Assembly (NCBI GenBank): GCA_016401345.1
Contig: JAEACG010000003.1
Span: forward strand, 124,001-188,000
Direction of reading: 5' to 3'
DNA: 64,000 nt
Source of the DNA: Fictibacillus nanhaiensis
Lineage (GTDB): Bacteria; Bacillota; Bacilli; Bacillales; Fictibacillaceae
Shown: positions 18,840 through 56,699 of the stretch, one piece after another
Numbering within the stretch: the first letter of the stretch is position 1
How the letters are laid out: every line of letters starts with the position of its first letter
The notes under the pieces: generated by a model
What the model saw: only the letters and a program-made list of their open reading frames with translations
Told to the model about the DNA's origin: nothing
Database searches by the model: none
Program-made: the position numbers and the translations under genes

Positions 18840-18956
18840 GAGCGTTATGGAGCGAAACGATGGTTAATTGGAGCGGAACAAGAGATGTTTGGAGCGAAAA
18901 GCGGCCATGTTTGAGCGAACGTGTAATAAATACAAAAACACGTACCGTGAAATTTT
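18840..18956 (+). repeat. 21-bp-phased intergenic array E1 (GAGCG core) with terminal segment
   Basis: GAGCG occurs at 18840, 18850, 18871, 18892 and 18913, so the last four are exactly 21 bp apart; the surrounding consensus is TTKGAGCGRAA. The array ends in a conserved segment (about 18913-18956: GCGAACGTGTAATAAATAC, then ACACGTACCGTGAAAT) shared with arrays E2 and E3. It lies in the otherwise gene-free stretch between the amylopullulanase promoter and the small lipoprotein gene. Confidence 0.75.
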
Positions 18957-19018
18957 ATAAGATGCACGCACCTTGCAGTGAAATTTGCTCGTCCCATATC
19001 AAATTACTTCAAACAACA

Positions 19019-19053
19019 AAAAACCGGGTCCTCTCTGGTAGGTAGAGGCCCGG
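19019..19053 (-). terminator. Intrinsic terminator after the lipoprotein gene
   Basis: CCGGGCCTCT/AGAGGACCCGG forms a strong stem followed by TTTTTTG on the minus strand, just past the stop at 19067. Confidence 0.85.
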
Positions 19054-19066
19054 CACTTCTTTTATC

Positions 19067-19243
19067 TTATTCAGCTGACTCTTCTGTTGATTCCTCATCT
19101 GTTGAAGTTTCTTCTTCTTGAGTATCAGATTGTTCTGTGCTTGTATCTTCTTCAGTATTTGTGTCTTCCGAGTTGCTACATGCAGTGATCAAAAATATTG
19201 CCAAAAGAGATGCTCCGATTTTAGCCAAAAACGTTTTGCTCAT
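19067..19243 (-). CDS. Small acidic lipoprotein
   Basis: 58 residues. The signal peptide MSKTFLAKIGASLLAIFLI ends in a lipobox (LITAC, Cys22), followed by a tail made almost only of Ser, Thr, Glu, Asp, Asn and Gln. It should be lipid-anchored on the outer face of the membrane. Such acidic tails are low-complexity and give no function. AAGGGAG lies ten bases before the ATG, and a strong terminator follows, so I regard it as real despite its size. Confidence 0.75.
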   Translation of the reverse strand: MSKTFLAKIGASLLAIFLITACSNSEDTNTEEDTSTEQSDTQEEETSTDEESTEESAE

Positions 19244-19407
19244 TGTTCAATTGCTCCCTTCGGATTTTCATTATGATTTTTGCATGAGTATGGGATTTCT
19301 TTGTCCCTGTTCAGAATATATCATGAAAAAAAACCGAAAAGACGCAATTTACCAAGTCATAACGGAGACTTTACAATTCTAAAATTAGCTTTATATGAGC
19401 TTAATAA

Positions 19408-19884
19408 TTATAGATCATAATGCAGCACATATTGCGGCCCGACTGGACCAGGTTTGATCTGACCGCGATCTACAAAACCTACTTTTTCGTAAAGTTTTTT
19501 TGCAGGATCATTTTTGAAGTTTACGGCTAAAATGAGTTCGTTTACTTCCGGAAAGTGTTTGGAAACAAACAGAGGAAGCTGCAACATCGCAACTTTTGCA
19601 TACCCCTTTCCTTGCTCAGGGTGATTGATGGATAAAGCACGAATCACCATCGCGTTCGGGTTTGCGGTAAAATCTCCAATGTTTTCACCCTTATGTAGAA
19701 CGAAAAAGCCGACTGTTTTGTTGTCACCCTCAATAACTACAGGATGACGCCCCTGATCTTTTTCACATTTCTTTAAAGCATCATTCGGCATCGCCGTGAA
19801 TTTTTCTTGCTCCTGAGGTAAATAAAACGCGTTTAATGAATCTCGATGTATCTCGTTAAAGAAGGTTAGTAATGTGTTTGCCAT
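19408..19884 (-). CDS. GNAT-family N-acetyltransferase
   Basis: 158 residues with the GNAT fold: VIRALSINHPEQGKGYAKVAM (about 95-115) holds the QGKGYA acetyl-CoA pyrophosphate loop, and NDPAKKLYEKVGF near residue 130 is the usual C-terminal motif. The acceptor is unknown. It begins 21 bp after the SGNH hydrolase stop with CAGGAG as SD, so the two are probably co-transcribed. Confidence 0.85.
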   Translation of the reverse strand: MANTLLTFFNEIHRDSLNAFYLPQEQEKFTAMPNDALKKCEKDQGRHPVVIEGDNKTVGFFVLHKGENIGDFTANPNAMVIRALSINHPEQGKGYAKVAMLQLPLFVSKHFPEVNELILAVNFKNDPAKKLYEKVGFVDRGQIKPGPVGPQYVLHYDL

Positions 19885-19905
19885 CTATGTAACTCCTGTT
19901 CGGTT

Positions 19906-20502
19906 TTATTGGATAACAAGTGATTCTGCCGCTTCCAGCCACGTTTTTGCCATGAGTTCGTTACCTTTGCGTCTCATATGTACACCATCTGTTGTTAAGG
20001 ACACATCTGGCTTTTTGATTAGATGGTTGATAAAAACATCATGTGTAGGTACGAGCACGGCTTTAAATTCTTTTGCTAACTTTCGGACGACTTCCACGTA
20101 CGGCATCAACAGCTGATTTCCTTGAGATTCTGTGTTTTCCTTTATAATCGTAGGTTCCATTAAGACAAGTTTTGTTTTTGGTGAAAGCTGCGTTAACAAC
20201 CCCCGATACACTTCCTCAAATTTAGAAGCATCCACCTGCTCCAATTGAGGGCTGTCGAGCTGTCTCCACACATCGTTGATTCCAATGGAAACAGATAAAA
20301 AATCAGGCTCAAGATCGATTACATCTCGCTGCCACCGAAAAGCGAGGTCTGTCACGCGATGTCCGTTCACACCTTTATTGATCACTGTTACTTCCCCTGG
20401 CAAGACTTCTTTAATCATGCGAACGTAACCGTCACCCAGTCGATCTGCGTCTGTGTTTTTATTTGAAGCTGTAATGCTGTCACCGATAAAAATAATTTTC
20501 AT
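19906..20502 (-). CDS. SGNH/GDSL hydrolase (lysophospholipase L1-like)
   Basis: 198 residues with all four SGNH blocks: FIGDSIT near the N-terminus (nucleophile Ser), KGVNGHRV (Gly), SIGINDVW (Asn) and the C-terminal TDGVHMRRKG (Asp-x-x-His). No signal peptide, so an intracellular esterase or lipase-like enzyme. The ATG at 20502 is preferred to one two codons earlier because GGAGG is then nine bases away instead of three. Confidence 0.87.
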   Translation of the reverse strand: MKIIFIGDSITASNKNTDADRLGDGYVRMIKEVLPGEVTVINKGVNGHRVTDLAFRWQRDVIDLEPDFLSVSIGINDVWRQLDSPQLEQVDASKFEEVYRGLLTQLSPKTKLVLMEPTIIKENTESQGNQLLMPYVEVVRKLAKEFKAVLVPTHDVFINHLIKKPDVSLTTDGVHMRRKGNELMAKTWLEAAESLVIQ

Positions 20503-20572
20503 CTCCATTTCCCTCCCTGTTTTCTTTATTCTATTTTATCACGTCGAACCGAAATGTTAGGATTTAAAGGAT

Positions 20573-20601
20573 TTTACATTCTTTCTTTGAATATCTATAA
20601 A
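20573..20601 (+). promoter_or_regulatory. Putative sigma-A promoter of the methyltransferase gene
   Basis: TTTACA and TATAAA are separated by 17 bp and lie 27 bp upstream of the start codon at 20628. Confidence 0.5.
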
Positions 20602-20627
20602 AAATCCTTTTTTAAGGAGGTCGTATC

Positions 20628-21662
20628 ATGCTTGAAACAGCGGTTCAGCAACCGAAAACGTTCGGCCAAACAGAAATGAGGCCGTCATACCGAATGGATC
20701 TGCGACAGTATAGAGACAGAAAAGAATATGAAAAGTTTGTAAAAGTAAATACGGTGAACGATTGGTCCACTGTGACGTGGAAAGATATTGGCAAACCGTA
20801 TGAGGTGACTTCTTTTTCAAAAGAAAAAACAGAGTGGGAACAGACGCACGGCGAGATGCTCCCGGTCCATACATCCTGGACGATGTTCAACCAGTCCTTT
20901 CACGAGTGGTTCTCTAAGGATGTACCCACTGAGATTGGGGATAAAAAGAACGCTTTTTTTAAAAGTTTAACAAGCTTCAAGCCTAGTGAAGTAAAAACGG
21001 CACTTGGTGATTACGTGCGGATCCACCTCTGGAATTATGTGCACCGTATTCAAGACGGCATCTGGGATCCGCGTGGAAAGAGAGCTTTGTTCGAGGGACT
21101 GGACGTTCTGAAACCTCGCATACTATTTTTGGGAGCTGCTGAAGGCTATGAAGCGATGCAGCTGTCAGCGATGTACCCTGACGGTGAGGTAGTGATGGTG
21201 GATTATGATCCGTTCTGCCGAGATACACGGTTCGCAGAGTTTCCTGAGTCTTATCCGTTTTTAGGGAAAAATTCACGAACAGGTGGAGACAAAGTTTATT
21301 ATAAAAATGACTTCAATATCTCGTATGTCGTGGATGATATTCGCAATCTGCCTTATGGCAGAGAGTTCGACATCGTGCTCAGCGTCGGGTTGTTAGAGCA
21401 TTTTCCTGACTCTATGAAAGCTGAAGTCGTTGAGTTGCATCGAAAATTCTTGAAACCGAGTGGCTATATCGTGATGACGACACCTCGTGCGCAATTGCGT
21501 TCCAAACTGTATTACGAGATCATGGCGGATGTGATGAACCATACGTATCGCGAGCTGATGACGTTAGAGCAGATGGGACTCTATCTGCATGAAAACGGTC
21601 TGGAGATTATGCGACATGGTTATATAAAGGTGCATAACGGAATTGTGGCGAGGGCGAAATAG
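20628..21662 (+). CDS. Class I SAM-dependent methyltransferase, substrate unknown
   Basis: 344 residues. The Rossmann methyltransferase core lies in the C-terminal half: motif I is ILFLGAAEGYEAM (about 163-175), followed by the acidic VVMVDYD, DIVLSVGLLEHF (motif II region) and a loop GYIVMTTPR. The first 150 residues are outside the core and not recognised (MRPSYRMDLRQYRDRKEYEK). Motif I is unusual, with AAE in place of the usual GxG, but the fold signals are consistent. AAGGAGG precedes the ATG; a terminator follows. Confidence 0.75.
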   Translation: MLETAVQQPKTFGQTEMRPSYRMDLRQYRDRKEYEKFVKVNTVNDWSTVTWKDIGKPYEVTSFSKEKTEWEQTHGEMLPVHTSWTMFNQSFHEWFSKDVPTEIGDKKNAFFKSLTSFKPSEVKTALGDYVRIHLWNYVHRIQDGIWDPRGKRALFEGLDVLKPRILFLGAAEGYEAMQLSAMYPDGEVVMVDYDPFCRDTRFAEFPESYPFLGKNSRTGGDKVYYKNDFNISYVVDDIRNLPYGREFDIVLSVGLLEHFPDSMKAEVVELHRKFLKPSGYIVMTTPRAQLRSKLYYEIMADVMNHTYRELMTLEQMGLYLHENGLEIMRHGYIKVHNGIVARAK

Positions 21663-21669
21663 GAATGTG

Positions 21670-21699
21670 TGAAACCTGGAGAGGACTCCAGGTTTTTTT
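21670..21699 (+). terminator. Intrinsic terminator after the methyltransferase gene
   Basis: AACCTGGAG/CTCCAGGTT with an AGGA loop followed by a T-run. Confidence 0.88.
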
Positions 21700-21766
21700 G
21701 ATGTGTTCTTTTTTTGTAAGGTCTTTAGAATATTTGATGTTAGTTAACAGATTGATAGCGAAAAAT

Positions 21767-21877
21767 GTCGAAAATCGGATAAATAATTTTATACACGTAA
21801 TTATTGAGCTTAAACCCGGAATTATTGAACTTATCTGCGGATATAAAAGGAATTACCTCGTAATAATTTTACAGCGA
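21767..21877 (-). repeat. 21-bp-phased intergenic array E4 (AATWATTNCG core)
   Basis: On the plus strand units begin CGGATAAATAA, CGTAATTATTGAGC, CGGAATTATTGAAC, CGGATATAAAAGG and CGTAATAATTT, spaced 20, 21, 21 and 21 bp. Read on the minus strand the array ends in TTTTCGACATTT, the same terminus as E5, E6 and E7. It lies between the methyltransferase terminator and the convergent HAD gene. Confidence 0.7.
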
Positions 21878-21947
21878 CCATCTTATGCGAACATATCGGA
21901 ATAGTGTATTTTCCACATGTACACTTAATCCAATTTTTTTATTATTT

Positions 21948-22625
21948 TCAACTCTGGATTTGAATAGTTGTGTTTTTCAATAATACTTCCCTTAATTCAG
22001 AGACAGTATTAACAATAGAAGTAGGTTTTGCAGCTGTGAGTTCTTCCATTAAACCATATCCGTATGTAACGCCTATTGAATTGATACCTGTGTTACAAGC
22101 CCCGATAATATCATGCTTTCTGTCACCGATCATGATGAACGTTTCCTTTGGTTGATTGTTGTAATGATGAAGGATGTACTGAATGATCTCCGTTTTACTC
22201 GTACGTGTTCCGTTGAGATTGCTGCCAACAATCAAGTCGAAATGATGATGTATGTTGAAGTATTTTAAGATTTCTTCAGCAAATACGGTAGGTTTAGAGG
22301 TTGCGACAACTAATGTAAGGCCATTATCACTCAGTTCTTGAAGAAGTGAAGGGATATGTTCGTAAAGTGTATTCTCGTACATGCCTTTGTCCTTGAATCT
22401 TTCACGATAGTGCGTAATGGCTGTTCGGATCTGCGTTTCATTAAAGGAATAGAATTCTTGGAAAGATTGTTGAAGTGGTGGTCCGATGAAAGATTCTAAG
22501 TGATCAAGGTTCTCTTCTGTAATGCCCATTCTTCTCAAGGCAAACTGAACAGATTTTGTGATACCGATTTTAGGATCAGAAAGAGTCCCGTCTAAGTCAA
22601 ACAAGATATATTCATAATTCTTCAT
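21948..22625 (-). CDS. HAD-family phosphatase (phosphoglycolate phosphatase-like)
   Basis: 225 residues with the HAD motifs: FDLDGTLSDP (nucleophile Asp near residue 9), VVATSKP (Thr/Ser motif II), the Lys region near KTEI, and MIGDRKHDIIGA (motif IV acids). The helical cap between motifs I and II is the C1 type of phosphoglycolate/pyrophosphatase-like enzymes. Substrate not determinable. The ATG at 22625 (AAGGAG upstream) is chosen instead of a start 35 codons earlier, since the extra residues precede the HAD fold and have no SD. Confidence 0.85.
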   Translation of the reverse strand: MKNYEYILFDLDGTLSDPKIGITKSVQFALRRMGITEENLDHLESFIGPPLQQSFQEFYSFNETQIRTAITHYRERFKDKGMYENTLYEHIPSLLQELSDNGLTLVVATSKPTVFAEEILKYFNIHHHFDLIVGSNLNGTRTSKTEIIQYILHHYNNQPKETFIMIGDRKHDIIGACNTGINSIGVTYGYGLMEELTAAKPTSIVNTVSELREVLLKNTTIQIQS

Positions 22626-22681
22626 CTGATTTACTCTCCTTCGCAGCCATATTTTGAAGCTCAAATTTAAAATAGCATAAA

Positions 22682-22738
22682 AAGAAAGCTTGAAATAGGA
22701 CATACACCCTAAGGGAATGCTCCATTTCAAGCTTTTAT
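22682..22738 (-). terminator. Long-stem terminator after fabZ
   Basis: AAAGCTTGAAAT and ATTTCAAGCTTT pair around a 30-nt apical region that contains CCCTTAGGG, followed on the minus strand by CTTTTT. Confidence 0.65.
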
Positions 22739-22748
22739 GATAATTGTG

Positions 22749-22765
22749 TGGGGTCAGACCCCACT
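22749..22765. repeat. 17-bp palindromic GGGTCAGACCC element
   Basis: GTGGGGTC and GACCCCAC flank a single A downstream of fabZ. It shares the GGGTCAGACCC core with the perfect palindrome at 28800-28825. Confidence 0.55.
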
Positions 22766-22773
22766 GTGGTTTT

Positions 22774-23199
22774 TTATTTGCCTAGTGCGAAGGTGATCTC
22801 GACTTCGCAGGCTACTTGGCCATCCACAGTCGCGATTCCTTTACCTTTACCGATTGAACCGCGCACACGTGTCATCTCTACTTCTAGACGAAGCTGGTCG
22901 CCTGGTACGACTTGCTTTTTGAAGCGGCAGTTATCAATGCCTGCGAAGAATGCAAGGCGTCCGCGGTTTTCTTCTTTTTTCAGCATCGCGACTGCACCTA
23001 CTTGAGCGAGTGCTTCTACAATCAATACGCCTGGCATAACCGGATATTCCGGGAAGTGACCGTTGAAGAATTCTTCGTTCGCTGTAACGTTCTTGATTCC
23101 GACAGCACGCTCTCCTTCTTCTACTTCTAAGATCCGGTCAATCAACAAGAACGGATAACGGTGCGGAATGATTTCTTTGATTTCTTCGATCGTTAACAT
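22774..23199 (-). CDS. fabZ: 3-hydroxyacyl-ACP dehydratase
   Basis: 141 residues, the normal FabZ length. The hot-dog fold carries [10 protein letters not shown], then [20 protein letters not shown] with catalytic His48 and Glu62. It dehydrates 3-hydroxyacyl-ACP in each cycle of type II fatty acid elongation in the cytosol. The ATG at 23199 has AAAGGTG ten bases upstream; an in-frame TTG two codons earlier is too close. Its place next to flhP/flhO/mbl/spoIIID is the usual Bacillus order. Confidence 0.95.
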
Positions 23200-23289
23200 A
23201 TACAAACATCACCTTTCTTTTTTCACTCATTGTTTCTAATCTATTTTTATTATACTTGGTATTGTTACCTGGTACTAATTTTACATCAA

Positions 23290-23329
23290 AAGAAAACAAT
23301 GACTACATTCATTGCCATTGTTTTTTTAT
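23290..23329 (-). terminator. Intrinsic terminator after the EpuA-like gene
   Basis: AAACAATGGCA and TCATTGTTT pair imperfectly and are flanked by T/A runs on both strands, ten bases past the stop at 23337. Confidence 0.6.
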
Positions 23330-23336
23330 TATATCT

Positions 23337-23624
23337 TTACCCATCTTTTTCTACAAGGTCGATGATGTGTGTCCATGTTTCTTTTTCAAACACGTTCATC
23401 GGTTTGCCGTCACCAATCACGCCATAGCCAACCATCGTACCAACAGCAAAGCAGACGATGATTCCACAGACGAGGAGCAGCAGACGAAGCCAAATCGGAA
23501 AGCTTCTTTTCGTTCGGCGTTGGTACCACTGTTTCTTCTCTTCTTTAGTAGACGTTTCTTTTTCTTGGTAACGCTGTGTTTTCGGTTTTTCGTTTTTATT
23601 CAACTCTTGCATCTTATTCGTCAT
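23337..23624 (-). CDS. EpuA-family single-pass membrane protein
   Basis: 95 residues: a charged cytosolic N-terminus (about 1-43), one membrane helix (WLRLLLLVCGIIVCFAVGTM, about 45-65) and a short outside tail (YGVIGDGKPMNVF...). This is the EpuA family often listed as 'RNA polymerase subunit beta' in Bacillus genomes; nothing in the sequence supports a polymerase role. It follows flhP closely and belongs to the conserved mbl-flhO-flhP block. Confidence 0.78.
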   Translation of the reverse strand: MTNKMQELNKNEKPKTQRYQEKETSTKEEKKQWYQRRTKRSFPIWLRLLLLVCGIIVCFAVGTMVGYGVIGDGKPMNVFEKETWTHIIDLVEKDG

Positions 23625-23639
23625 ACAAACCTACCTCAT

Positions 23640-24467
23640 TTAGCGAAGCCCGTTTACTAACCCCATCATTTGGTCAGCAATTGTAAGAGAACGCGCATTA
23701 AATTGATAAGAACGTTGTGTTTGAATCATTTCCGTCATCTCGGTGGAAATGTTTACATTCGAGGATTCGAGTGCCCCTTGCTGAACGAAGTTACCTGCTC
23801 CAGCATTTACTTCCTCTATCAGTTGATTCAACGGAATGTCCTGTGGCGCTTGCAAGTTCTGCCCGACAGATACCATCAACTGCGGCCGAACCATGTTCAC
23901 AATCGCTAGCTGTCCTGATTCAACAATCGCTCCATTATTTAACGTTACCGAAACTTGGCCGTTTTGTCCAATGGTAATTTTGCTATGCTCAGCTGGAATC
24001 GTAATCGGTCCGTCTACACCCATTACTTTATTGCCTTCTGATGTAACAAGTTCCAACTGATTCGGGTTGTTAGCAGACGGTGATAAATAGAACGCGCCGT
24101 CCCTTGTGAACTGCTGCGTTTCGTTTCCGTTGTTATCCACGCCCGAAACCTGAAAATAAAAGCTAGGCTGTGTGAGCGCTACATCAAGAAGTCGTCCAGT
24201 CTGTTGCAGCGTGCCCGCTTCTAAACTAAGTGCAGTTGAAGAAACACGCGCTCCGCTGCCCAGTCGAATTCCGTTGGGCGTTAGTCGGCCCGCTTCAGTC
24301 GGATTCAGTGCTTCACTATTAATCTGCTGAAAAAGAATATCCGAAAATTGCGCCTCGCGTCTTTTATAGCCGTTCGTCGTGCTGTTCGCCATATTATTTG
24401 AGATGGTATCAAGCTTATGCTGTAGCTGCCCCATCGTTACTGCTGCTGAAATCATAGACTGGTTCAT
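23640..24467 (-). CDS. flhP: Flagellar rod/hook-basal-body protein FlhP
   Basis: 275 residues. The N-terminal flagellar rod motif TISNNMANSTTNGYKRREAQ and the C-terminal VNISTEMTEMIQTQRSYQF/NARSLTIADQM helix are typical of FlgG/FlgF-type rod proteins. In Bacillus FlhO and FlhP are rod components downstream of mbl. It follows flhO by 11 bp with GGGGATC as SD and is translated from the same mRNA. Confidence 0.92.
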   Translation of the reverse strand: MNQSMISAAVTMGQLQHKLDTISNNMANSTTNGYKRREAQFSDILFQQINSEALNPTEAGRLTPNGIRLGSGARVSSTALSLEAGTLQQTGRLLDVALTQPSFYFQVSGVDNNGNETQQFTRDGAFYLSPSANNPNQLELVTSEGNKVMGVDGPITIPAEHSKITIGQNGQVSVTLNNGAIVESGQLAIVNMVRPQLMVSVGQNLQAPQDIPLNQLIEEVNAGAGNFVQQGALESSNVNISTEMTEMIQTQRSYQFNARSLTIADQMMGLVNGLR

Positions 24468-24478
24468 TTTTGATCCCC

Positions 24479-25312
24479 CTAGCCGATTCGGCCAATTTCG
24501 TTCGATGCTTTTTCCATGGTACGGTCATAGGCTTGAAGTACTTTTTGGTTGGCTTCAAACGCACGATAAGCCGTCAGCATCTCTGTCATCGTCTGTTCCG
24601 TGTTCACGTTCGAACGTTCTACAAAACCTTGCTGCACGTTGTACGTAATGTTCGGATTCCCAAGAGCACTCGGCGCATCCCCGTTTCCATCCAGTCTGAA
24701 TAACCCTGAGCCTTCTTTTACAAGATCGTTAGGGTTCGTGATGTACGCAACATCGATCTGCCCCGCAACTGCACCGTTATCGAGCACCGTACCGTCTTTG
24801 TTCACTGTAAAATTGTCGCTTCTCACCGTGATTCGGTTACCATCGGTTCCAAGCACATAATTTCCTTCCGGCGTTACAAGACTACCTTCTGCATCCACTG
24901 AAAAATGACCATTCCTCGTAAAGCGTTCTTCTCCGTTCACGTTCAATCGGAAAAAGAGTCCGCCGGGCTTACCTGTTTCGGGGTCAAGTGGAACTTGTCC
25001 TTGAAGAAGCGCCATATCCGTTTTTATCCCCGTCTCGCGCATGTCACCTTGTAGGAAATTAGGAGTCGTCTCCTGAACGTAAACACCTGTTGAGAGTGCC
25101 GCTGGTCCGATCGGGTAGTTGTTCGGCAGCTTCTTACCGTTCATTTCCGTCTCTCCCATATGCTGAAGCAGCATCGTTGGAAAAGTGCGCAGACTCGCAT
25201 TGTCCGCTTTATATCCAGGCGTATTCGCATTCGCCATGTTGTTTGTTAAAATTTCTTGTTTGCGCTGCTGTGCCAGCATGCCAGCTGCAGCATTATAAAA
25301 GCCTCTTAACAC
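24479..25312 (-). CDS. flhO: Flagellar rod/hook-basal-body protein FlhO
   Basis: 277 residues with EILTNNMANANTPGYKADN at the N-terminus and VNTEQTMTEMLTAYRAFEANQKVLQAYDRTM-type C-terminal helices, the paired ends of axial flagellar proteins. The start is GTG at 25312: AGGAGG lies eight bases upstream and the family N-terminus (LRGFYNAAAGML) begins there. Upstream in-frame codons are non-coding leader. Confidence 0.92.
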   Translation of the reverse strand: MLRGFYNAAAGMLAQQRKQEILTNNMANANTPGYKADNASLRTFPTMLLQHMGETEMNGKKLPNNYPIGPAALSTGVYVQETTPNFLQGDMRETGIKTDMALLQGQVPLDPETGKPGGLFFRLNVNGEERFTRNGHFSVDAEGSLVTPEGNYVLGTDGNRITVRSDNFTVNKDGTVLDNGAVAGQIDVAYITNPNDLVKEGSGLFRLDGNGDAPSALGNPNITYNVQQGFVERSNVNTEQTMTEMLTAYRAFEANQKVLQAYDRTMEKASNEIGRIG

Positions 25313-25493
25313 GGAGTATTCCTCCTGTATTTGTAATCTGGACACAATATGTCTCATCTGTTGTATCGACAGTTTTATACAATTATTAATAGATTTCTGC
25401 AAAAATTGTGAGATTCCTTTTTCATGATGGGGATTCCGTCCTAGAGGTGGTGAAGAGAAGTGAAGTGACTTTGTGGTGCGAATCCGCTTGTTT

Positions 25494-25613
25494 GTCGAAA
25501 AGCCTATAAATGAATTTGAAGGACTATAAATCTTTTCAAAGGCCTATAAAATAATTTCAAGGACTATAAATTATTTTGAGGGCCTATAAATTTCGATTTA
25601 GGGCCTAGAAGCT
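25494..25613 (-). repeat. 20-bp-phased intergenic array E5 (CTATAAA core)
   Basis: On the plus strand CTATAAAT or CTATAAAA recurs five times, followed by a CTAGAAG variant, with spacings 20, 20, 20, 20 and 21 bp; each is preceded by GGC, GGA or AGC. Read on the minus strand the array ends in GGCTTTTCGACAAAC. It lies between flhO and the terminator of mbl, where no gene is present. It is the only array with a 20-bp rather than 21-bp period. Confidence 0.75.
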
Positions 25614-25688: not shown

Positions 25689-25690
25689 CA

Positions 25691-26686: not shown

Positions 26687-26881
26687 GTTATATCCTCCCT
26701 GTTAACATCCATACGATATAATGACATTTTTAGTAAAAAATCGAAGTTCTATCCAATTTATCATTATATCACAAGTCTGTCGAACAAGGTGAAATATTGT
26801 CAAAAATTAATTATTTGATACTGGAACGATGCGGCACATAATGTAATATTGTTTCATCTAACATCCTTCATTCTCATAAAC

Positions 26882-27148
26882 TTACTGAACAACTTCCTCT
26901 GTGCCTTTTTTGTACTTTACGCGAGTCGCTTCTCCACCTCTCAAGTGGCGGATGGACTTATGGTATTCGAGGATCTCTTTTACGTTGTTTGCAAGATCTG
27001 GATTAATTTCAGGCAGCCGCTCGGTGAGGTCTTTATGCACCGTGCTTTTGGAAACCCCGAATTCTTTTGCGATCATGCGGACTGTTTTTCTTGTCTCCAC
27101 GATATACCGTCCTATCTTGATGGTTCGCTCTTTGATGTAATCGTGCAC
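26882..27148 (-). CDS. spoIIID: Sporulation transcription factor SpoIIID
   Basis: 88 residues, nearly all alignable to SpoIIID: RTIKIGRYIVETRKTVRMIA, a helix-turn-helix AKEFGVSKSTVHKDLTERL, and a basic tail HLRGGEATRVKYK. It works in the mother cell between sigma-E and sigma-K stages as activator and repressor. The start is GTG at 27148 with GGGAGG eight bases upstream. Confidence 0.96.
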   Translation of the reverse strand: MHDYIKERTIKIGRYIVETRKTVRMIAKEFGVSKSTVHKDLTERLPEINPDLANNVKEILEYHKSIRHLRGGEATRVKYKKGTEEVVQ

Positions 27149-27461
27149 ACCACTCGCCTCCCTAAAATGGATGTGAGAGATGCGATAGAGACTTGTATGA
27201 ACAAGCTACGTGACAAGTTTCGTTGTCATCTTCGGCTTATAAGTATTGCTTCCATTCCCCTTTTTCCACCGCAGCCATAGTACGATTTCTCACCGCTCAC
27301 CCTCAATTGAATTATTGTAGGTTTTGTAACATCTTATTAACCAAGTTTTCGTTATATGCCTAAATCTCAACTGGGACAAGGGGAAATGTCCATATTTGTG
27401 AAAAAACCTGCATAAACAGTTGGAAAATTAAGTTATTTAATCGATAAGAATGATGAAAATA

Positions 27462-27605
27462 TATTTTACGGTACGTGTTTTTATATGTATGACGCGTTCG
27501 CCGGTAAACGTGCTTTTTTCACCGATAAAACTTCTGTGACCACCCGAGAACTGCTTCGTTACACCGGTTATGCAATCGGGACCACCTAAAAAAGTGAATT
27601 GGTTC
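27462..27605 (-). repeat. 21-bp-phased intergenic array E2 (CGGTGAA core) with terminal segment
   Basis: On the minus strand units begin CGTTGAAC, AGGTGGTC, CGGTGTAA, GGGTGGTC, CGGTGAAA and CGGCGAAC, spaced 22, 21, 21, 21 and 21 bp, each preceded by a T-rich or TTAC/TTAT stretch. The array ends in GGCGAACGCGTCATACATA, then ACACGTACCGTAAAAT, matching E1 and E3. It fills most of the gene-free stretch between spoIIQ and spoIIID; the rest (27149-27460) holds the spoIIID upstream region, where I see no gene. Confidence 0.75.
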
Positions 27606-28799: not shown

Positions 28800-28825
28800 G
28801 GGGGTCTGACCCGGGTCAGACCCCC
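28800..28825. repeat. Perfect 26-bp palindrome (GGGGGTCTGACCC / GGGTCAGACCCCC)
   Basis: All 26 bases are self-complementary with no loop. A related shorter version, GTGGGGTCAGACCCCAC, occurs at 22749-22765 downstream of fabZ. Both lie just downstream of a gene's stop, which suggests a small REP-like family or a transcription/mRNA-end element. Confidence 0.7.
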
Positions 28826-35073: not shown

Positions 35074-35224
35074 TCGGTGGAAAAATATCATTTACAGGTG
35101 GTTGAACACGAATCACCGGTTAAAAGGGGCTGCGTTCAGGTGGAAATACACACTTTTTCAGGTGCTCACCACCAGTTTACCGGCGAACGTGTAACAAAAT
35201 ATATGAACGCGTACCGTAAAATCG
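35074..35224 (+). repeat. 21-bp-phased intergenic array E3 (MGGTGGA core) with terminal segment
   Basis: Units begin CGGTGGAA, AGGTGGTT, CGGTTAAA, AGGTGGAA, AGGTGCTC and CGGCGAAC, spaced 21, 21, 21, 22 and 21 bp, most preceded by TTTAC, TTC or TCAC. The array ends with GGCGAACGTGTAACAAAATA, then ACGCGTACCGTAAAAT, matching E1 and E2. It lies in the gene-free stretch between the 48-residue membrane protein and the murA terminator. Confidence 0.75.
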
Positions 35225-38041: not shown

Positions 38042-38235
38042 GTTGATTTCCGTTTCAGTTACTCGCTTTCCGCGGGGCAGGCGGTGAGCCACATTCGTTC
38101 GTTTCACTCTTAAGTGTCTCACCTGGCTAGTTGCAGTGGCTAGCCCCTCGAAATTGTCGGGACTGAACGAGCCACCTCTACTTTGAGGACTGCCACCTGT
38201 CCCGCAGGAGTCTCGCATCTTACACTTCAATCAAC
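38042..38235 (+). repeat. Dispersed imperfect palindrome R1
   Basis: Starts GTTGATTTCCG and ends CAATCAAC, giving inverted ends. Inner segments CTTTCCGCGGGGCAGG and CCTGTCCCGCAGGAG are also complementary. Same family as R2-R4 but 194 bp because of about 66 extra central bases. It occupies the gene-free stretch between ywzB and nuoN; I see nothing else there except the nuoN terminator. Confidence 0.78.
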
Positions 38236-47191: not shown

Positions 47192-48613
47192 CTACACCTC
47201 CACGTCATGGGGTTCGTAATCTTTTCTGAGCGGATGTCCTACCCAATCGTCCGGCAGCATGATGCGCGTTAAGTTCGGATGACCTTCAAAATGGATGCCT
47301 AAAAGATCATATGTTTCACGCTCTGGCCAGTTTGCTCCCCCCCATAACGGGGTAATGGAATGGGTAGTAGCGCTCGTTCTGTCTATCTTTACTTTTAATG
47401 CAACGGACTGGCGATGATTGTACGAATACAGGTGGTTATAGACTTCAAAATGTGTTTCAAAATCGGTGCCGTGCATTTCAGATAAATAATCAAAACGAAG
47501 CTGGTCGTTATATTTTAAAAACTCCGCAATTTTATAATAGGATTCAGGTTTTGCAACTAAGGTAGGGACGTCTTTTGACAGTCTGTTAATATAGGAATCT
47601 TCGAGTACATCTTCTCCTAGATGTTCTTTGATGACTTTTGTGTAGGTATCGAGGATAGGTTGGTTTGGTGATGGTTTTTCTTCTGCGACAGGTTCGGTTG
47701 CTGCACCTTTTGCATTCGCGGCAGCACGTGCTTTTGCGGCTGCAGCTGCTTTTGCTTTCGCAGCGGCGATCGCTTTCGCTTTTTCATCGTCACCTGCTGG
47801 CTCAGTTGTTGCATCTGATCCTGCTTCACGAGACGCTTTCGCTTTCGCAGCGGCGGCAGCTTTTGCTTTGGCTGCAGCGACGGCCTTTGCTTTTGCCGCA
47901 GCTTTCGTTTTTTCATCGTCTGAAGCGGGTTCGATGGATGTGTTGCCTCCACTCTCTCTTGCTAGTTTTGCTTTAGCGGCAGCTGCTGCCTTCGCCTTTG
48001 CTGCTGCGGCTGCTTTCGCTTTCGCGGCGGCTAGTGCTTTTTGTTTCGCAAGATCGTCTGTTGGCTCATCGATTTTTGGAACTTCTGATGTTTCTGCTTT
48101 CTCAGCCTGACGCTGTTTCGCGAGCTCGAGGGCTTTTGCCTTTGCTTCTGCGGCCGCCTTTTTCTTTAGCTCTTCTTTTGCTAGCTCCGGTTGCGCTGCC
48201 GTCGGCTCGGTTCCTTCTGCAGCTTTTGTTTTTTCAGCCTGCCGCTGTTTCGCAAGCTCGAGGGCTTTTGCCTTTGCTTCTGCGGCCGCCTTTTTCTTCA
48301 GCTCTTCTTTTGTTAACTCCGGTTCGGCTTCGGTCGGTTTCGACACATCTGATGCTTTCACTTTTTCGGCCTGACGCTGTTTCGCGAGTTCGAGCGCTTT
48401 AGCCTTTGCTTCTGCGGCTGCTTTCTTTTTCAGCTCTTCTTTTGTTAACTCAGGTTCAGCTGCTTTCGGCTCTGACTGTTCAGCCGCCTTTTCTTTTTCA
48501 GCCTGACGCTGTTTCGCAAGCTCCAACGCTTTTGCCTTCGCTTCTGCGGCGGCTTTTTTCTTTTGTTCTTCTATCGATAATCCTTCATTGGAATCATTTT
48601 GCTTATCTGTCAT
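47192..48613 (-). CDS. nuoC: Complex I subunit C with ~315-residue Lys/Ala repeat extension
   Basis: 473 residues, about three times the usual core. Residues 316-473 are the 30-kDa-like domain ending [19 protein letters not shown] and [11 protein letters not shown]. Residues about 18-315 are low complexity: four near-identical 44-residue units built on [18 protein letters not shown] and PELTKEEL, then three about 43-residue units of [14 protein letters not shown] with DDEK. Predicted as long charged helix or disorder; its role is unknown, though long charged NuoC extensions exist in other Bacillaceae. Reading frame is intact and overlaps nuoB. Confidence 0.9.
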
Positions 48614-50372: not shown

Positions 50373-50465
50373 AATATAGGTGCAGTTTCGGTGAACGAAA
50401 CTGTTTTGATTACATACCCAACTAGGTATTTTTGCATTCAATTCTAGAAATATGGCTCCTAATAC

Positions 50466-50553
50466 AGCGAGAATTCAATTTATTCCAGCGAGATTTTACT
50501 AAAATCCGGCGAGTTTTTAACATATATCGGCGAGTCTACATATTTCGACATCT
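50466..50553 (+). repeat. 21-bp-phased intergenic array E6 (CGGCGAG core)
   Basis: Units CAGCGAGAATT, CAGCGAGATTT, CGGCGAGTTTT and CGGCGAGTCTA are spaced 21, 21 and 21 bp. The array ends GAGTCTACATATTTCGACA, nearly the same as E7. It lies between two terminators, where no gene is present. Confidence 0.75.
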
Positions 50554-50591
50554 ATCATCAATCGGATACCCCCGCACGCTTCATGACATAT

Positions 50592-50651: not shown

Positions 50652-52310
50652 TTAGATCGCCTCAACAGACAATCGCAATTGCTCTTCGAAATCTTCTGCA
50701 TGCTCACGTTTTTGTTCTGCGTTCCAGCCCAATTTGTCTGCCATGCAGTTGATTACACTTTCTTTCCACTCGTATACCGTATCGATGTCAAAGTATAGAG
50801 CCGACGTACGGCGGATCAAGAAGTCAGATGGTGTTGATGTCATCTCATACTCTAATGCATAAAGTAGAGATGCGTACAAACTTACTGGTAAGTTGTAGCT
50901 CTTCGCCTCTTCACCGCGTTCTTTCATATAACCATAAACGATATCGATGTTCGTTCCGTAGCGCTGCACGAGCTCGCGAGCTTTTGATTCATCCAGACCT
51001 AACGCTAACCCTTCCTGTACTTTCGTACGAAGGAAGTCTGCGAAGTTTTGGCTTCCGCCCATCTTACCGCCGGATAATTCCATGTGTTGGGTGCGGCATC
51101 CTGGGAATTTTGCCCCTTCTTCCTCACCAAGCTGATCGCGAACGATATCCACGACTTTTTCAGCCATTTTACGGTAACCTGTCAGCTTACCACCAGCGAT
51201 TGTTAACAATCCTGATGGAGAGTGGAACACTTCATCTTTACGAGAAATTTCTGAAGGTCCTTTTTTCGGTTCGTGAATCAACGGACGTAGTCCTGACCAT
51301 GATGATTCAACATCGTCGCGCGTAATCTTCACGTCTGGGAACATGAAATGGATCGTGTTCAGTACATATTGAAGATCCTCTTCCGTCATACCAGGGTTTG
51401 CAAGGTCTCCCTTGTAGTCCGTATCTGTCGTGCCAATATACGTTTTACCCGCACGAGGAATCGCGAACACCATACGGCCGTCTTCTGTGTCATAATAAAC
51501 CGCTTGCTTCAGTGGGAACTTCGAGCCATCAATAACAAGGTGGATTCCTTTTGTATGGTGGATCTCTTTTCCTGTTTTCGAACGGTCTTCTTCGCGAAGT
51601 TCATCTACCCATGGACCTGTTGCGTTTACGATCTTTTTCGCATAGATCTCATGAATTTCGCCAGTGAGCTGGTCTTCCACTTTTACTCCGACCGCTCTTT
51701 TTCCGTTATAGATAAAGCTAGTAACTTTCGCGTAGTTCACAGCTGATGCTCCGCGTGACACCGCTTCTTTCATGATCTCAAGCGTTAAACGAGCGTCATC
51801 TGTTTTGTATTCTACGTAATATCCGCCGCCAAGCAAGTTATCCTTTTTCAAAAGTGGTTCACGGCGTAATGTTTCTTCAGCTGAAAACATTTTTCTTCGT
51901 TCTTTGCGTTTTACACCTGCTAAGAAATCGTACACTTTTAGACCGATGGATGTGGAGAACTTTCCGAACGTACCACCTTTATAAAACGGTAGAAGCATCC
52001 ACTCTGGCGTTGTTACGTGTGGAGCGTTCTCGTACACGATCGCACGTTCTTTACCAACTTCAGCAACAAGTTTTACTTCAAACTGTTTTAAATAACGAAG
52101 TCCGCCGTGAACAAGTTTTGTAGAACGGCTGGATGTTCCAGCAGCAAAGTCCTGCATTTCTACAAGACCTACTTTCATACCACGCGTTTGGGCATCTAAA
52201 AGAATACCTGCTCCCGTTACGCCTCCTCCGATTACGAGGAGATCAAGCTTCTCTTGTTTCATACCTGTGATAATTTCTTCTCTTTTATATGTTGAAAATG
52301 ATGCTGTCAT
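50652..52310 (-). CDS. glpD: Glycerol-3-phosphate dehydrogenase (FAD)
   Basis: 552 residues. The FAD site DLLVIGGGVTGAGILLDAQT is near residue 23; other landmarks are GTSSRSTKLVHGGLRYLKQF, NATGPWVDELR, and GGKLTGYRKMAEKVVD. It oxidises glycerol 3-phosphate to dihydroxyacetone phosphate at the membrane and feeds electrons to menaquinone. A leader with a terminator separates it from glpK. Confidence 0.96.
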   Translation of the reverse strand: MTASFSTYKREEIITGMKQEKLDLLVIGGGVTGAGILLDAQTRGMKVGLVEMQDFAAGTSSRSTKLVHGGLRYLKQFEVKLVAEVGKERAIVYENAPHVTTPEWMLLPFYKGGTFGKFSTSIGLKVYDFLAGVKRKERRKMFSAEETLRREPLLKKDNLLGGGYYVEYKTDDARLTLEIMKEAVSRGASAVNYAKVTSFIYNGKRAVGVKVEDQLTGEIHEIYAKKIVNATGPWVDELREEDRSKTGKEIHHTKGIHLVIDGSKFPLKQAVYYDTEDGRMVFAIPRAGKTYIGTTDTDYKGDLANPGMTEEDLQYVLNTIHFMFPDVKITRDDVESSWSGLRPLIHEPKKGPSEISRKDEVFHSPSGLLTIAGGKLTGYRKMAEKVVDIVRDQLGEEEGAKFPGCRTQHMELSGGKMGGSQNFADFLRTKVQEGLALGLDESKARELVQRYGTNIDIVYGYMKERGEEAKSYNLPVSLYASLLYALEYEMTSTPSDFLIRRTSALYFDIDTVYEWKESVINCMADKLGWNAEQKREHAEDFEEQLRLSVEAI

Positions 52311-52553
52311 TTTCTCTTCACTCCTTCTGTACAGAACCGTTGGACATATATAATACGGGTAGTTTTCCCGGAATCAGCGAACCCAACACACATTTTTCAA
52401 CATTTCCGTGTATTGGCTATATGCACGTAAAGAAAACTTGGCTGACGCTAGTCTTTGGTGTCAGCCTTAGTTGCGCTTATACTATCGACCTTAAACTTGT
52501 TACAACGCCGAAAATCATCATGCTAACAAGTTATAGGTTTTTGATAGTACAAA

Positions 52554-52604
52554 AAAAAGACCACAAGAACCCCGCAACGTTTGTACGAGGTTTTGTGGTC
52601 TCTC
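52554..52604 (-). terminator. glpK terminator / glpD leader antiterminator site
   Basis: GACCACAAAACCTCG and CGGGGTTCTTGTGGTC form a long stem followed by TTTTTTTTG on the minus strand. It stands between glpK and glpD, 240 nt upstream of glpD. In B. subtilis a similar glpD leader terminator is overcome by GlpP with glycerol 3-phosphate; the same role is inferred here. Confidence 0.8.
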
Positions 52605-52671
52605 CTGATCTCCAACCGGTTCAATATCAACTTGGGTTTAGTATAACGCAGTTTTCTAGATTTTGAAAGGG

Positions 52672-54207
<1,536 letters not shown>

Positions 54208-55035
54208 TTAGTTTTCTATTTCATCTCCATGAGGCAGTGCATGTGTGCCTTTACTTCCTAAGAAGAACGTTATAGCAAAGATTGCTAGTGATACCACTGT
54301 CCAGATCCAGAATAACGTTGTAACTTTTCCTGTAAAAACAGCTTGATAGAACAATGCTCCGAAAACTCCTCCAAGCACTGGTCCTACAACTGGAATCCAC
54401 GAGTACGTCCAGTTGGATCCACCCTTACCTGGTATAGGCAAGATAAAATGTGCGATCCTTGGACCAAGGTCACGTGCCGGATTGATGGCATAACCTGTTG
54501 GTCCTCCAAGTGACAAACCGATTGCTACGATTAGGAATCCGACGATCAGTGGATTTAACCCGTCTGAAAATTTATTCGCTCCAATTGACAATAATCCTAC
54601 TAGTAAAACCGCAGTTCCAATGAATTCTGATAAAAGATTCGAAAACGTATGCGGAATTGCAGGGTCTGTTGAAAAAACTCCTAATTTTACCGCTGGATCA
54701 TCTGTTGCTTTCCAGTGAGGAAGGAAGTGGAAGTATACGACCATTCCTCCTAAGATACCGCCGATTATCTGTGCAATGATATATGCTGGTACATCCGACC
54801 AAGCAAATTCACCGATTGAAGCGAGACCTAGTGTTACTGCCGGATTAAGGTGTGCACCGCTAAAGCTTCCGACTGCATATACCGCCATTGCAACAGCTAA
54901 CCCCCAAGCAAGTGCGACAACGATCCATCCTCCACCTTGGGCTTTTGATTTATTCAAGGAAACGTTTGCAACAACGCCTCCGCCAAATATGATTAGAATC
55001 ATTGTTCCTATCAGTTCTGCCATAAATGTTGACAT
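54208..55035 (-). CDS. glpF: Glycerol uptake facilitator (aquaglyceroporin)
   Basis: 275 residues, six helices and two half-helices carrying NPA motifs (HLNPAVTLG and INPARDLGPRIAH). The Asp after the second NPA-R is characteristic of glycerol rather than water channels. Start at 55035 (AAAGGAGG upstream); upstream in-frame codons fall in the regulated leader. Confidence 0.95.
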   Translation of the reverse strand: MSTFMAELIGTMILIIFGGGVVANVSLNKSKAQGGGWIVVALAWGLAVAMAVYAVGSFSGAHLNPAVTLGLASIGEFAWSDVPAYIIAQIIGGILGGMVVYFHFLPHWKATDDPAVKLGVFSTDPAIPHTFSNLLSEFIGTAVLLVGLLSIGANKFSDGLNPLIVGFLIVAIGLSLGGPTGYAINPARDLGPRIAHFILPIPGKGGSNWTYSWIPVVGPVLGGVFGALFYQAVFTGKVTTLFWIWTVVSLAIFAITFFLGSKGTHALPHGDEIEN

Positions 55036-55099
55036 GTATTTTCCTCCTTTTGTGCAATCGCTATCAAATATAAGTGCAATGATGTGTCCGGATTTCATC

Positions 55100-55137
55100 A
55101 AAAAAAGACCCAGCAAAAGATACCTATAGTTTTGCTA
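55100..55137 (-). terminator. glpF leader terminator, likely GlpP target
   Basis: AGCAAAACTATAGG and ATCTTTTGCT form a stem within a wider GATCC...GGGTC pairing, followed by TTTTTTTG on the minus strand, about 65 nt upstream of the glpF start. This is the expected place for GlpP-dependent antitermination. Confidence 0.8.
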
Positions 55138-55191
55138 TAAGTAACCCTTGTGGATCTCCATGTTCTCCGTCACGTTTATGAACTTGTCTCT

Positions 55192-55219
55192 ATTATAACA
55201 AGGATGAAAACGTTGTCAA
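55192..55219 (-). promoter_or_regulatory. glpF promoter, perfect -35 and -10
   Basis: TTGACA and TATAAT, both perfect consensus, are separated by 16 bp on the minus strand. The transcript would begin about 150 nt upstream of glpF and include the leader terminator. Confidence 0.85.
55205..55218 (-). promoter_or_regulatory. cre (CcpA) box overlapping the glpF promoter
   Basis: TGAAAACGTTGTCA matches the cre consensus at all fixed positions and lies between and over the -35 and -10 boxes, predicting direct catabolite repression of glycerol use. Confidence 0.82.
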
Positions 55220-55238
55220 ACGTTATTTCACAAGAACA

Positions 55239-55784
55239 TTAGATCCACAATTCCGGGTTTGAAGTCGTCACAGCCTCTGCACCTGCTTCAAGTGCTTCCA
55301 TCACGTTCACTTTTGTACGAATTAATCCACCAGCGATTACCGGTATACCCGCTTGCTCACTCACTTCTCTTATTATTTCCGGCATGATGCCTGGCAAAAC
55401 CTCTAAATAGTCTGGCTGAGCACGTTCGATCACTTTATAACTCGTTTCAAGAGCTAATGAATCCAATAAAAACAAACGCTGAACTGCGATCATGTTCTTC
55501 TTTTTAGCACGAATGATGCAGTTAGACCGTGTTGAAATGATTCCTGCTGGTTTCATTTCTTGTGCTAAAAAGTCGACTGCATACTCATTTGCTTTCAGCC
55601 CGTTGATCAGATCCAGATGAACCAAAACTTTCTTCTTTCTTTCGTTCGCCATAGCGATCATAAATTTTAGCTGACTGATATGCGTGTCCAAACATACGAT
55701 ATATGTGTATTTGCTGTTTAGCAGCTTCTCAAAATCCTTCATCTTTCTCGCTGCTGGCAAAACTTTTTGTCCATGGAAGCTCAT
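55239..55784 (-). CDS. glpP: Glycerol operon antiterminator
   Basis: 181 residues of the GlpP TIM-barrel family: VLVHLDLINGLKANEYAVDF, GIISTRSNCIIRAKK, LEVLPGIMPEIIREVSEQAG and VIAGGLIRTKVNVMEALEAG. With glycerol 3-phosphate it prevents termination in the glpFK and glpD leaders. The ATG at 55784 has AAGGGG eight bases upstream. It sits immediately upstream of the glpF promoter, the standard position. Confidence 0.95.
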   Translation of the reverse strand: MSFHGQKVLPAARKMKDFEKLLNSKYTYIVCLDTHISQLKFMIAMANERKKKVLVHLDLINGLKANEYAVDFLAQEMKPAGIISTRSNCIIRAKKKNMIAVQRLFLLDSLALETSYKVIERAQPDYLEVLPGIMPEIIREVSEQAGIPVIAGGLIRTKVNVMEALEAGAEAVTTSNPELWI

Positions 55785-55916
55785 CTTGCACACCCCTTAC
55801 GTTCTTATCATTCACCAGTTTCCGCAATTTATTGCAAAACCCCGGTAAACCGCCTTTTTTACATATTAAGTGATAATAACACATACAACTACCGACGGAC
55901 GAGCATTAAATAGTGT

Positions 55917-55941
55917 ATAGCTTTTAAATGAAGCTATATTT
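55917..55941 (+). other. Inverted repeat upstream of the 59-residue ORF
   Basis: TATAGCTT and AAGCTATA flank a seven-base loop. It is about 35 bp before the start of the ORF at 55975 and could be an operator or an mRNA 5' hairpin. Confidence 0.45.
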
Positions 55942-55974
55942 TAAGCACTTCCTTTGCTTGAGGAGGTGAAAAGC

Positions 55975-56154
55975 ATGATTAAAAAGAGAAAAAAACCTGT
56001 GATCTCTCCTGTTGGCGACTATCAAAATCCTTTTGGTGATGAAGTGGTTCAAATGGAAGAGGTAACAGAAACGAACGCGATGACTGATGAAAATGGCGAC
56101 CAATTGTGGTTACGTAGGGTTTCATGTGCTCCGCCGATTTTTGGAAGAAACTAA
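55975..56154 (+). CDS. Orphan 59-residue protein
   Basis: 59 residues: basic N-terminus MIKKRKKPVISPVGDYQNPF, acidic middle, and C-terminus RRVSCAPPIFGRN. No membrane segment or known domain. The SD (GAGGAGGTGAAAAGC) is one of the strongest in the window. I do not recognise the family. A peptide precursor is possible (single Cys in a short aromatic/proline tail), but no modifying enzyme or transporter is adjacent, so this is only speculation. Confidence 0.6.
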   Translation: MIKKRKKPVISPVGDYQNPFGDEVVQMEEVTETNAMTDENGDQLWLRRVSCAPPIFGRN

Positions 56155-56196
56155 ATAAAAGGCTGTTTTCATATGCGATGTAGCTATCCGGATGTA

Positions 56197-56325
56197 GTTG
56201 CTTTCCGCTCCAGGTTGCGCGCTTTCCATGGGGCGAACGGTGAGCCTCCTGCCGCTTTGCGCCATTAGGAGTCTCCACCTGACCGCTCATCCCATAGGAG
56301 TCGGCAACCTTACGCTTCAATCAAC
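56197..56325 (+). repeat. Dispersed imperfect palindrome R4
   Basis: 129 bp. Starts GTTGCTTTCCGCTCCAGG, contains CTTTCCATGGGGCGAACGG and GACCGCTCATCCCATAGGAG, ends CAATCAAC. Same family as R1-R3, more divergent. It lies in the stretch between the orphan ORF and atpC. Confidence 0.75.
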
Positions 56326-56444
56326 CTGCATATGGAGAAAATAAATATTTATCCAAATAGCAACAATCTAGCAAAAAAGAGCCAAATAAAAAACGATCCA
56401 TCCAGTGGTCAACCTTCTCAAACTGAACGTGATGTATTCGTATA

Positions 56445-56491
56445 AAGCCCCTTTGACTTTGTTTTTGGACAAGTCGAAGGGGTTTTTGAGT
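56445..56491 (+). terminator. Orphan plus-strand intrinsic terminator
   Basis: AGCCCCTTTGACTT and AAGTCGAAGGGG form a stem followed by TTTTTG on the plus strand. The nearest plus-strand gene ends about 290 nt upstream, so it either terminates that transcript after R4 or an unannotated RNA. Confidence 0.6.
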
Positions 56492-56583
56492 TTACATGTA
56501 CCAAGTTAATGTGCGTGGTGCGATTTTCCGGCAGTCCTAGCATTTAAATAGGCGTTGATTTTATACCACTAGGGGTAATTCAG

Positions 56584-56699
56584 CATTTAATTCAGCAAAT
56601 TTGATAATTAATTCGGCGAGATTTGATATTATTACGGCGAGTTTTAACAATAATTCGGCGAGTTTTCATGATATATTGACGAGTCTCCAAATTTCGACA
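56584..56699 (+). repeat. 21-bp-phased intergenic array E7 (CGGCGAG core)
   Basis: Units CAGCAAATTTG, CGGCGAGATTT, CGGCGAGTTTT, CGGCGAGTTTT and GACGAGTCTCC are spaced 21, 21, 21 and 22 bp, after a first partial CAGCATTT. Ends GAGTCTCCAAATTTCGACA as in E6. It lies just before the atp terminator. Confidence 0.77.

Follow-up and report, generated by a model that had tools for sequence, protein, structure and literature searches.

Intergenic arrays stepped at two helical turns in Fictibacillus nanhaiensis: shared ends, interchangeable cores and a possible role in protein assembly

How can short intergenic sequences keep one period while the repeated motif changes from place to place? The question is raised by a 64,000-bp stretch of the Fictibacillus nanhaiensis genome (GenBank assembly GCA_016401345.1, contig JAEACG010000003.1, positions 124,001 to 188,000; hereafter the window, whose own coordinates are used for its features). 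A sequence-only reading had noticed in it seven intergenic arrays, E1 to E7, of degenerate units stepped at 21 bp (20 bp in E5), with differing cores, and had taken them for a phased protein-binding or bending element rather than ordinary tandem repeats. Our analysis confirms that the arrays are real and shows that the phenomenon extends well beyond the seven. They are not seven unrelated arrays, however: they have two kinds of shared ends and belong to dispersed families, and at least one family has spread as a unit.

Phasing, location and parts of the arrays

A chance origin can be rejected based on control periods, chain-search controls and shuffles. For each array, we counted the identical columns over the best four units and compared the count with 500 Markov shuffles. 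None of the 500 was as good for E1 (8 columns), E5 (12 columns, at period 20), E6 or E7 (9 columns each), and the moderate arrays E2 and E4 (5 columns each) were equaled by 1/500 and 7/500, respectively; E3 alone fails this test, and shuffled sequence does not otherwise yield such arrays. The autocorrelation scan of intergenic DNA that the sequence-only reading had proposed gave peaks at lags 21, 42 and 20. Specifically, the intergenic exact 6-mer pairs in 445 kb around the window numbered 467 at lag 21, 272 at lag 42, 146 at lag 20 and 132 each at lags 40 and 63, the remaining lags between 9 and 62 giving 16-66 (lag 60 excepted, with 77). Strict arrays were likewise found at 20-21 bp only. 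In the strict scan, an intergenic cluster counted if four of its units agreed in 7 or more columns; the periods tried were 20, 21 and 12 controls. It returned 19 clusters at period 21 and 3 at period 20 in the 445 kb of the window's own genome (G000), 22 and 2 in 400 kb of one relative (G010), and 10 and 6 in 400 kb of another (G003), with no cluster at the control periods in any of the three. At least two of the period-20 clusters of G010 (3798294 and 3998592) resemble low-complexity DNA, and loosening the threshold to 6 columns brings 4, 7 and 3 clusters at the 12 control periods in G000, G010 and G003, respectively. A spacing-tolerant chain search found 19, 18 and 20 arrays in the same three genomes and nothing at control periods save one cluster each in G010, G003 and G203, while a looser density scan gave 46 regions vs. 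4-15 in ten Markov controls, its weaker rows being unreliable and left out of the counts. By extrapolation from the strict density (22 in 445 kb), there would be about 200 arrays genome-wide. Of the seven arrays, Tandem Repeats Finder with a score threshold of 30 picked up no more than E5 and E7. The mixture of 20- and 21-bp steps within arrays makes a coding origin unlikely.

The arrays are located at gene 3' ends and avoid divergent promoters. With genes called mechanically (open reading frames, ORFs, of at least 90 aa; small genes may be missed), the 62 strict arrays of the three genomes lie in 35 tandem, 26 convergent and 1 divergent gene pairs, compared with 234 tandem, 79 convergent and 123 divergent among comparison intergenic regions of at least 150 bp. 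Within the tandem regions, 27/35 arrays are nearer the upstream stop codon and 33/35 start no more than 170 bp from it. Hairpins resembling intrinsic terminators adjoin several arrays (judged by eye only).

The terminus was taken as the 3' end when strand was assigned, which places E2, E4 and E5 on the minus strand and E1, E3, E6 and E7 on the plus strand. E1, E2 and E3 share a 34-35 bp terminus consisting of GCGAACGYGT, an AT-rich stretch and CGTACCGT. E1 (18829-18952) has GAG[CT]G units at 18829, 18850, 18871, 18892 and 18913 and its terminus (GCGAACG...CGTACCGT) at 18915-18948. This corrects the earlier reading: the true start of E1 is near 18829, and the GAGCG at 18840 lies 10-11 bp out of phase. 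Orthologs of E1 exist in G009, G012 and G011, and G010 has no array there. E2 (27464-27605) has AGGTG/CGGTG units at about 27502-27605 with its terminus at 27468-27501, and E3 (35074-35221) has AGGTG-type units from 35074 onward with its terminus at 35183-35217. The terminus pattern of these three has 15 exact matches in the window's genome (reversed control, 0), and upstream of the 15 ends two unit types, TGAGCGAAAC and ACAGGTGGT, precede one identical terminus. Among 100 distinct terminus elements in the fetched loci, 64 carry at least three type I units, each with up to two mismatches allowed. Relative to the terminus, the units of these 64 stand near -22, -43, -63, -84 and -105; no more than 3 matches lie beyond. 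The 217 type I steps comprise 184 of 20 or 21 bp, 24 multiples due to missed units and 9 of other lengths. The type I plan is therefore fixed, i.e., five units plus a sixth core within the terminus.

E4 to E7 end in TTTCGACA instead. In E4 (21766-21877), degenerate units of TTACGAGGTAATT / AATAATTNCG type are followed by TTTCGACA at 21766-21773 on the minus strand. E5 (25493-25613) has CTATAAA units at 25504, 25524, 25544, 25564 and 25584 (period 20 bp), a variant unit at 25605, and TTTCGACA at 25493-25500, again on the minus strand. E6 (50466-50550) has GCGAG units at 50467, 50488, 50509 and 50530 and TTTCGACA at 50543-50550; around it stand an outer palindrome, CAGTTTCGGTGAACGAAACTG (50383-50403), of which other TCGACA elements have similar versions, a left palindrome, ATACCCAACTAGGTAT (50414-50429), and a right half-site, ATACCCCC, on the plus strand (50566-50573). 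E7 (56584-56699) has CGGCGAG units in 21-bp steps and TTTCGACA at 56692-56699, with a left palindrome-like sequence, ATACCACTAGGGGTAA, at 56563-56578 and the same half-site, ATACCCCC, at 56725-56732 on the plus strand.

The outer parts of the TCGACA group also keep to fixed distances. In ten elements, obtained by a search that required both outer parts, the left palindrome ATACCnnnnnGGTAT lies 119-121 or 128-131 bp upstream of TCGACA and an ATACCC half-site 22-23, 31-33 or 42 bp downstream of it. An independent search from TTTCGACA to ATACCCC, with a free gap of 12-42 bp and 12 genus genomes drawn, gave 22 matches in the genus with spans of 30 (10 matches), 31 (5), 40 (3), 41 (3) and 50 bp (1). 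All 22 fall on the phases 30/31, 40/41 or 50/51, vs. 14 of 59 matches outside the genus (Fisher p 1e-10, which is optimistic because some of the genus matches are orthologous to each other); the 59 are scattered and are not evidence in themselves, the control column having matches there too. This spacing in steps of one turn (about 10 bp) suggests that all parts need to lie on one side of the helix, and it points to duplex DNA rather than RNA. The left palindrome can be compared with a CsoR-type operator, but the CsoR family, PF02583, offers no link by its distribution: it occurs in 18/18 genus genomes, including those in which the searched arrays were not found.

Conservation, core switching and dispersal

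Between G000 and G010, differences amount to 108/1296 positions in cores (8.3%), 127/540 in spacers (23.5%) and 339/2844 in flanks (11.9%), with 22 of 23 pairs entered and 180573 excluded as below the 0.7 identity filter. Subtracting 142828, 174449 and 188743, loci that lack the array or have a different type, leaves 74/1157, 96/453 and 255/2380, respectively. When the 24 G000 loci were followed into G010, 17 were called as arrays, 6 were not and 1 had no ortholog; four of the six uncalled loci were viewed by eye, of which 174449, 217438 and 246271 are arrays and 142828 (E1) is not. The reverse comparison (G010 to G000, n=26) gave 19 called and 7 not called. With G003 the corresponding counts are 11 called, 7 not called, 5 without ortholog and 1 with flanks too far apart (from G000, n=24), and 12 called, 4 not called and 6 without ortholog (from G003, n=22).

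It is at such orthologous places that the core can be seen to change. The E2 site could be compared in 15 genomes out of the 18 of the genus: 7 have AGGTG-type, 5 GAGCG-type and 1 TGCGTGGAAA-type units and 2 have no array, and the terminus is recognizable in all 13 genomes with an array. The E6 site holds GCGAG units in G000, AATCCACGAG in G010 and ATAATCCCACGTTA in G003, between similar outer sites, and the E5 site holds a ATCACATAAAAA array in G004 and TATAAA/CATAAA units in ten genomes, F. nanhaiensis included. Type switching was also seen at E7, C20:9928, 188743 and 203416. In the switched arrays, spacers vary from unit to unit and therefore do not reflect a simple expansion of one recent unit; it seems that complete arrays arrived. 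A recent donor was searched for in one case, the G010 array at E6, and the matches listed included no near-identical copy elsewhere. The full-length relatives among these matches are in G006 (93%), G005 (84%) and G015 (82%), with a nearly full-length one in G011 (77%), all four apparently syntenic, and the others are partial (up to 88%) or weaker.

Copies at unrelated places exist as well. G003 has seven arrays, each at its own locus, that show 88-94% identity in the pairs listed, spacers included, and have both ends in common; their flanks are mostly unrelated. Many copies with these two ends were among the matches listed in at least five genomes. One subfamily dispersed as a unit of about 145 bp, the boundary of which needs care as some copies share extra flank with another common repeat. 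No clean empty site turned up, and no systematic test for target-site duplications was made. As a separate observation, a dispersed intergenic repeat, GTTGATTTCCG...GCTTTCCGCGGGGC...GGCGGTGAGCC, is common (in the window at 38065, 44677 and 56200, and at C20:64412), and parts of it adjoin some G003 arrays.

Some arrays are also interrupted. Six G013 loci have an array that breaks off in or close to a core, where one of two recurring flanks begins: one flank at L213, L216, L218 and L219 and the other at L214 and L215. These flanks are probably two insertion sequences, each at several arrays, because an ORF with an integrase-core (rve) transposase domain lies upstream at one of the loci, L219. 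The position of the insertions at or near cores may indicate a preference for targeting arrays. Mobilization by a RAYT-like protein was considered and rejected: the Y1 transposase family (PF01797) is present in 18/18 genus genomes, including G001 and G017, which yielded none of the searched arrays. The copies that were viewed (G000, L425-L428) adjoin GGGGTCAGnCCCC-like palindromes, not arrays. One such gene, at C20:85369-85698 outside the window, is accompanied by GGGGTCAGnCCCC palindromes, and this sequence is also present within the window, at 22750 and 28802-28825.

Across the genus, the terminus pattern is present in 15/18 genomes (at most 72 matches, in G013) and has no match in G001, G007 and G017, with G007 showing a variant terminus at one locus. 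Three genomes from other genera have a single terminus match each, with no array alongside; G024, from another genus of the same family, likewise shows none at its one match. Viral contigs gave 0 exact matches to the terminus (a single strict pattern), and a viral origin is not backed. A rough scan of the order found GAGCG at 20-21 bp steps in 95/397 genomes and 47/135 genera, figures to be read with the caveats that several loci look coding (L305-L308, L316, L317 and L320) and that GCGAG, used as the reversed control, happens to be one of the cores of these arrays and matches often in certain genomes. Samples of 100 kb from G283, G310, G203 and G294 contained 0, 0, 1 and 0 arrays, respectively; array density outside the genus may be low, or the spacing too mixed for the scan. 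Judged from sequence, the sole convincing case outside the genus in the search from TTTCGACA to ATACCCC is L318 (G236, from another family), convincing because the motif follows an array: GAGCGAAAT units, then TTTTTCGACA and ATACCCC.

Possible explanations: protein assembly or selfish repeats

Our preferred reading, which we hold tentatively and to which we would give somewhat less than even weight, is that the arrays are dispersed intergenic elements resembling repetitive extragenic palindromic (REP) sequences and bacterial interspersed mosaic elements (BIMEs), which would serve as sites for assembling protein along one DNA face. Under this hypothesis, sequence-specific proteins, probably one per core family, would bind the cores cooperatively on one face of the helix, and the terminus would anchor or stop the assembly. 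Less firmly, the bound array might play an architectural part or form a roadblock where genes end or converge, and so help termination, separate convergent genes or absorb supercoils, roles like those proposed for REP and BIME sequences. The arrays would multiply via transposition or ectopic gene conversion, and one type could therefore replace another at a locus. The phased-binding part of the sequence-only reading is well supported by the sequence data, while no support emerged for bending. The view that these are not ordinary tandem repeats also stands, given the 20-21 bp period, the fixed unit number, the outer steps of about 10 bp and the higher conservation of cores than of spacers.

Several results weigh against the reading of the arrays as protein-assembly sites. 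E3 by itself is without significance (3 columns, with 79/500 shuffles as good), although its conserved terminus and its ortholog in G010 support it. Spacers change faster than flanking DNA, which binding alone does not explain. The searched array types were not found in 2/18 genus genomes (G001 and G017), and the arrays are dispensable in this sense. The reversed-pattern control of the search from TTTCGACA to ATACCCC gave 9 matches in the genus, so that part of the 22 could be chance, even though every one of them is in phase. Finally, the same location would be expected of a purely selfish repeat whose copies persist best at gene 3' ends.

The last point leads to the strongest rival, a quite possible one although we rather doubt it: the arrays could be selfish, non-autonomous mobile repeats without host function, whose cores are transposase or recombinase sites and whose terminus is the processed end. 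TnsB or MuA sites, for comparison, lie near transposon ends. The near-identical G003 arrays at different loci, with spacers and ends in common, and the many same-ended copies in five genomes (among the matches listed) are what this explanation predicts, and the ten TCGACA-group elements have GGTAT/ATACC inverted ends. However, no inverted ends were seen by eye in 41 aligned copies of type A, the positions of the loci are largely common to the species compared, and cores stay conserved at orthologous loci, which is unexpected for inert copies. Further, no mobilizing gene was found, the Y1 transposase of all 18 genomes being among other palindromes. The selfish and the host-role readings may both be true at once.

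The other explanations appear much weaker. One is that the arrays are segregation- or replication-type sites (iteron- or parC-like) taken up by the chromosome, which consist of direct repeats of about 20 bp next to an AT-rich or hairpin terminus and are bound by an initiator or partition protein. The arrays resemble such sites in having five direct repeats at two-turn spacing and a terminus rich in AT, and 27/34 exact terminus copies in G003 would be co-oriented with replication if the origin is assumed at coordinate 0; yet this orientation may merely follow the gene strand, and there are many copies per chromosome with several cores, which makes the explanation improbable. (Few of the 34 matches on G003:C1 lie near 1.6-2.5 Mb.) RNA-level elements in 3' untranslated regions would agree with a position just after genes, but the arrays fold no better than shuffles (12 folds, z -1.33 to 1.54), no Rfam family covers them at gathering scores, and stepping by about 10 bp suits duplex DNA, leaving this a shade more improbable still. 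Least credible of all, and hardly tenable in our view, is that these are ordinary degenerate tandem repeats made by replication slippage: although the G011 copy of E1 contains duplicated 42-bp dimers and the array at C20:246274 is nearly regular at 20 bp, periods are 20-21 bp only, the unit number is fixed, the ends are conserved and spacers mostly differ between units.

Returning to the protein-assembly hypothesis, its most far-reaching form is a two-turn DNA ruler, in which arrays of fixed size with interchangeable cores would occupy fixed slots at gene ends, swap type between species and be matched by an undescribed set of proteins, with a patchy distribution across the order. We regard this form as conceivable but unlikely.

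Known systems, neighboring features and meaning

REP and BIME sequences have many dispersed extragenic copies with proposed roles in chromosome organization and transcription termination (PMC2817692, PMC1525189); REP sequences attract insertion sequences (PMC1525189), are palindromes of alternating orientation tied to RAYT genes (PMC2817692, PMC1525189), and have been discussed as selfish or as having a host role, both possibly together (PMC2817692). The arrays are similarly abundant, extragenic, located at gene ends and hit by insertion sequences, but their units are degenerate, non-palindromic, of one direction and spaced at two turns, the terminus is on one side, and they showed no link to RAYT genes. 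BOX elements have the plan boxA-boxB-boxC. In pneumococcus, they are described as modular dispersed repeats, probably parasitic, with extensive RNA secondary structure (PMC3049150); the arrays are also modular and dispersed but, unlike BOX elements, fold no better than shuffles. The TAACTGA direct repeats, which are abundant, patchy and intergenic and were proposed as regulator-binding sites, consist of a single invariant heptamer that, in the main species, usually lies shortly before start codons (PMC4679880). The arrays differ in their many cores, two-turn spacing and place at gene 3' ends. Tn7 and Mu ends, iteron origins and pSK41-type parC likewise have, close to a defined end, several protein sites that point in one direction at a spacing of about two turns. 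For the arrays, no associated transposase gene was found (Rep and Par genes were not searched for). Arrays of clustered regularly interspaced short palindromic repeats (CRISPR) have near-identical repeats and unique spacers, in contrast to the degenerate cores of about 6-13 bp here (cas genes were not searched for). Searches of the open-licence literature, partly narrow ones, listed no account of such arrays, and the papers listed by one of them make no mention of Fictibacillus. Small dispersed intergenic repeats are a known kind; to judge from these searches, the fixed helical plan and the core switching are undescribed.

A few other features of the window were noted. Positions 27281-27395, following the ORF at 26849-27280, are nearly unchanged across the genus genomes compared, beside the fast-changing E2, and are possibly an unannotated RNA or control region. 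Tandem repeats of 132/264 bp at 48084-48562 overlap an ORF on the minus strand (47192-48613). The only Rfam match in the window is a thiamine pyrophosphate (TPP) riboswitch at 476-582 on the minus strand (86.4 bits), with none over the arrays.

If the protein-assembly hypothesis is true, the arrays would represent a helically phased protein-assembly site in intergenic DNA that standard annotation has overlooked. The genus offers a natural experiment in this respect, with different cores at the same locus in sister species and two species in which the searched types were not found. The arrays make it practical to find the binding proteins and to test a role in termination or in the separation of convergent genes, and they let one ask how the core changes while the place is kept.

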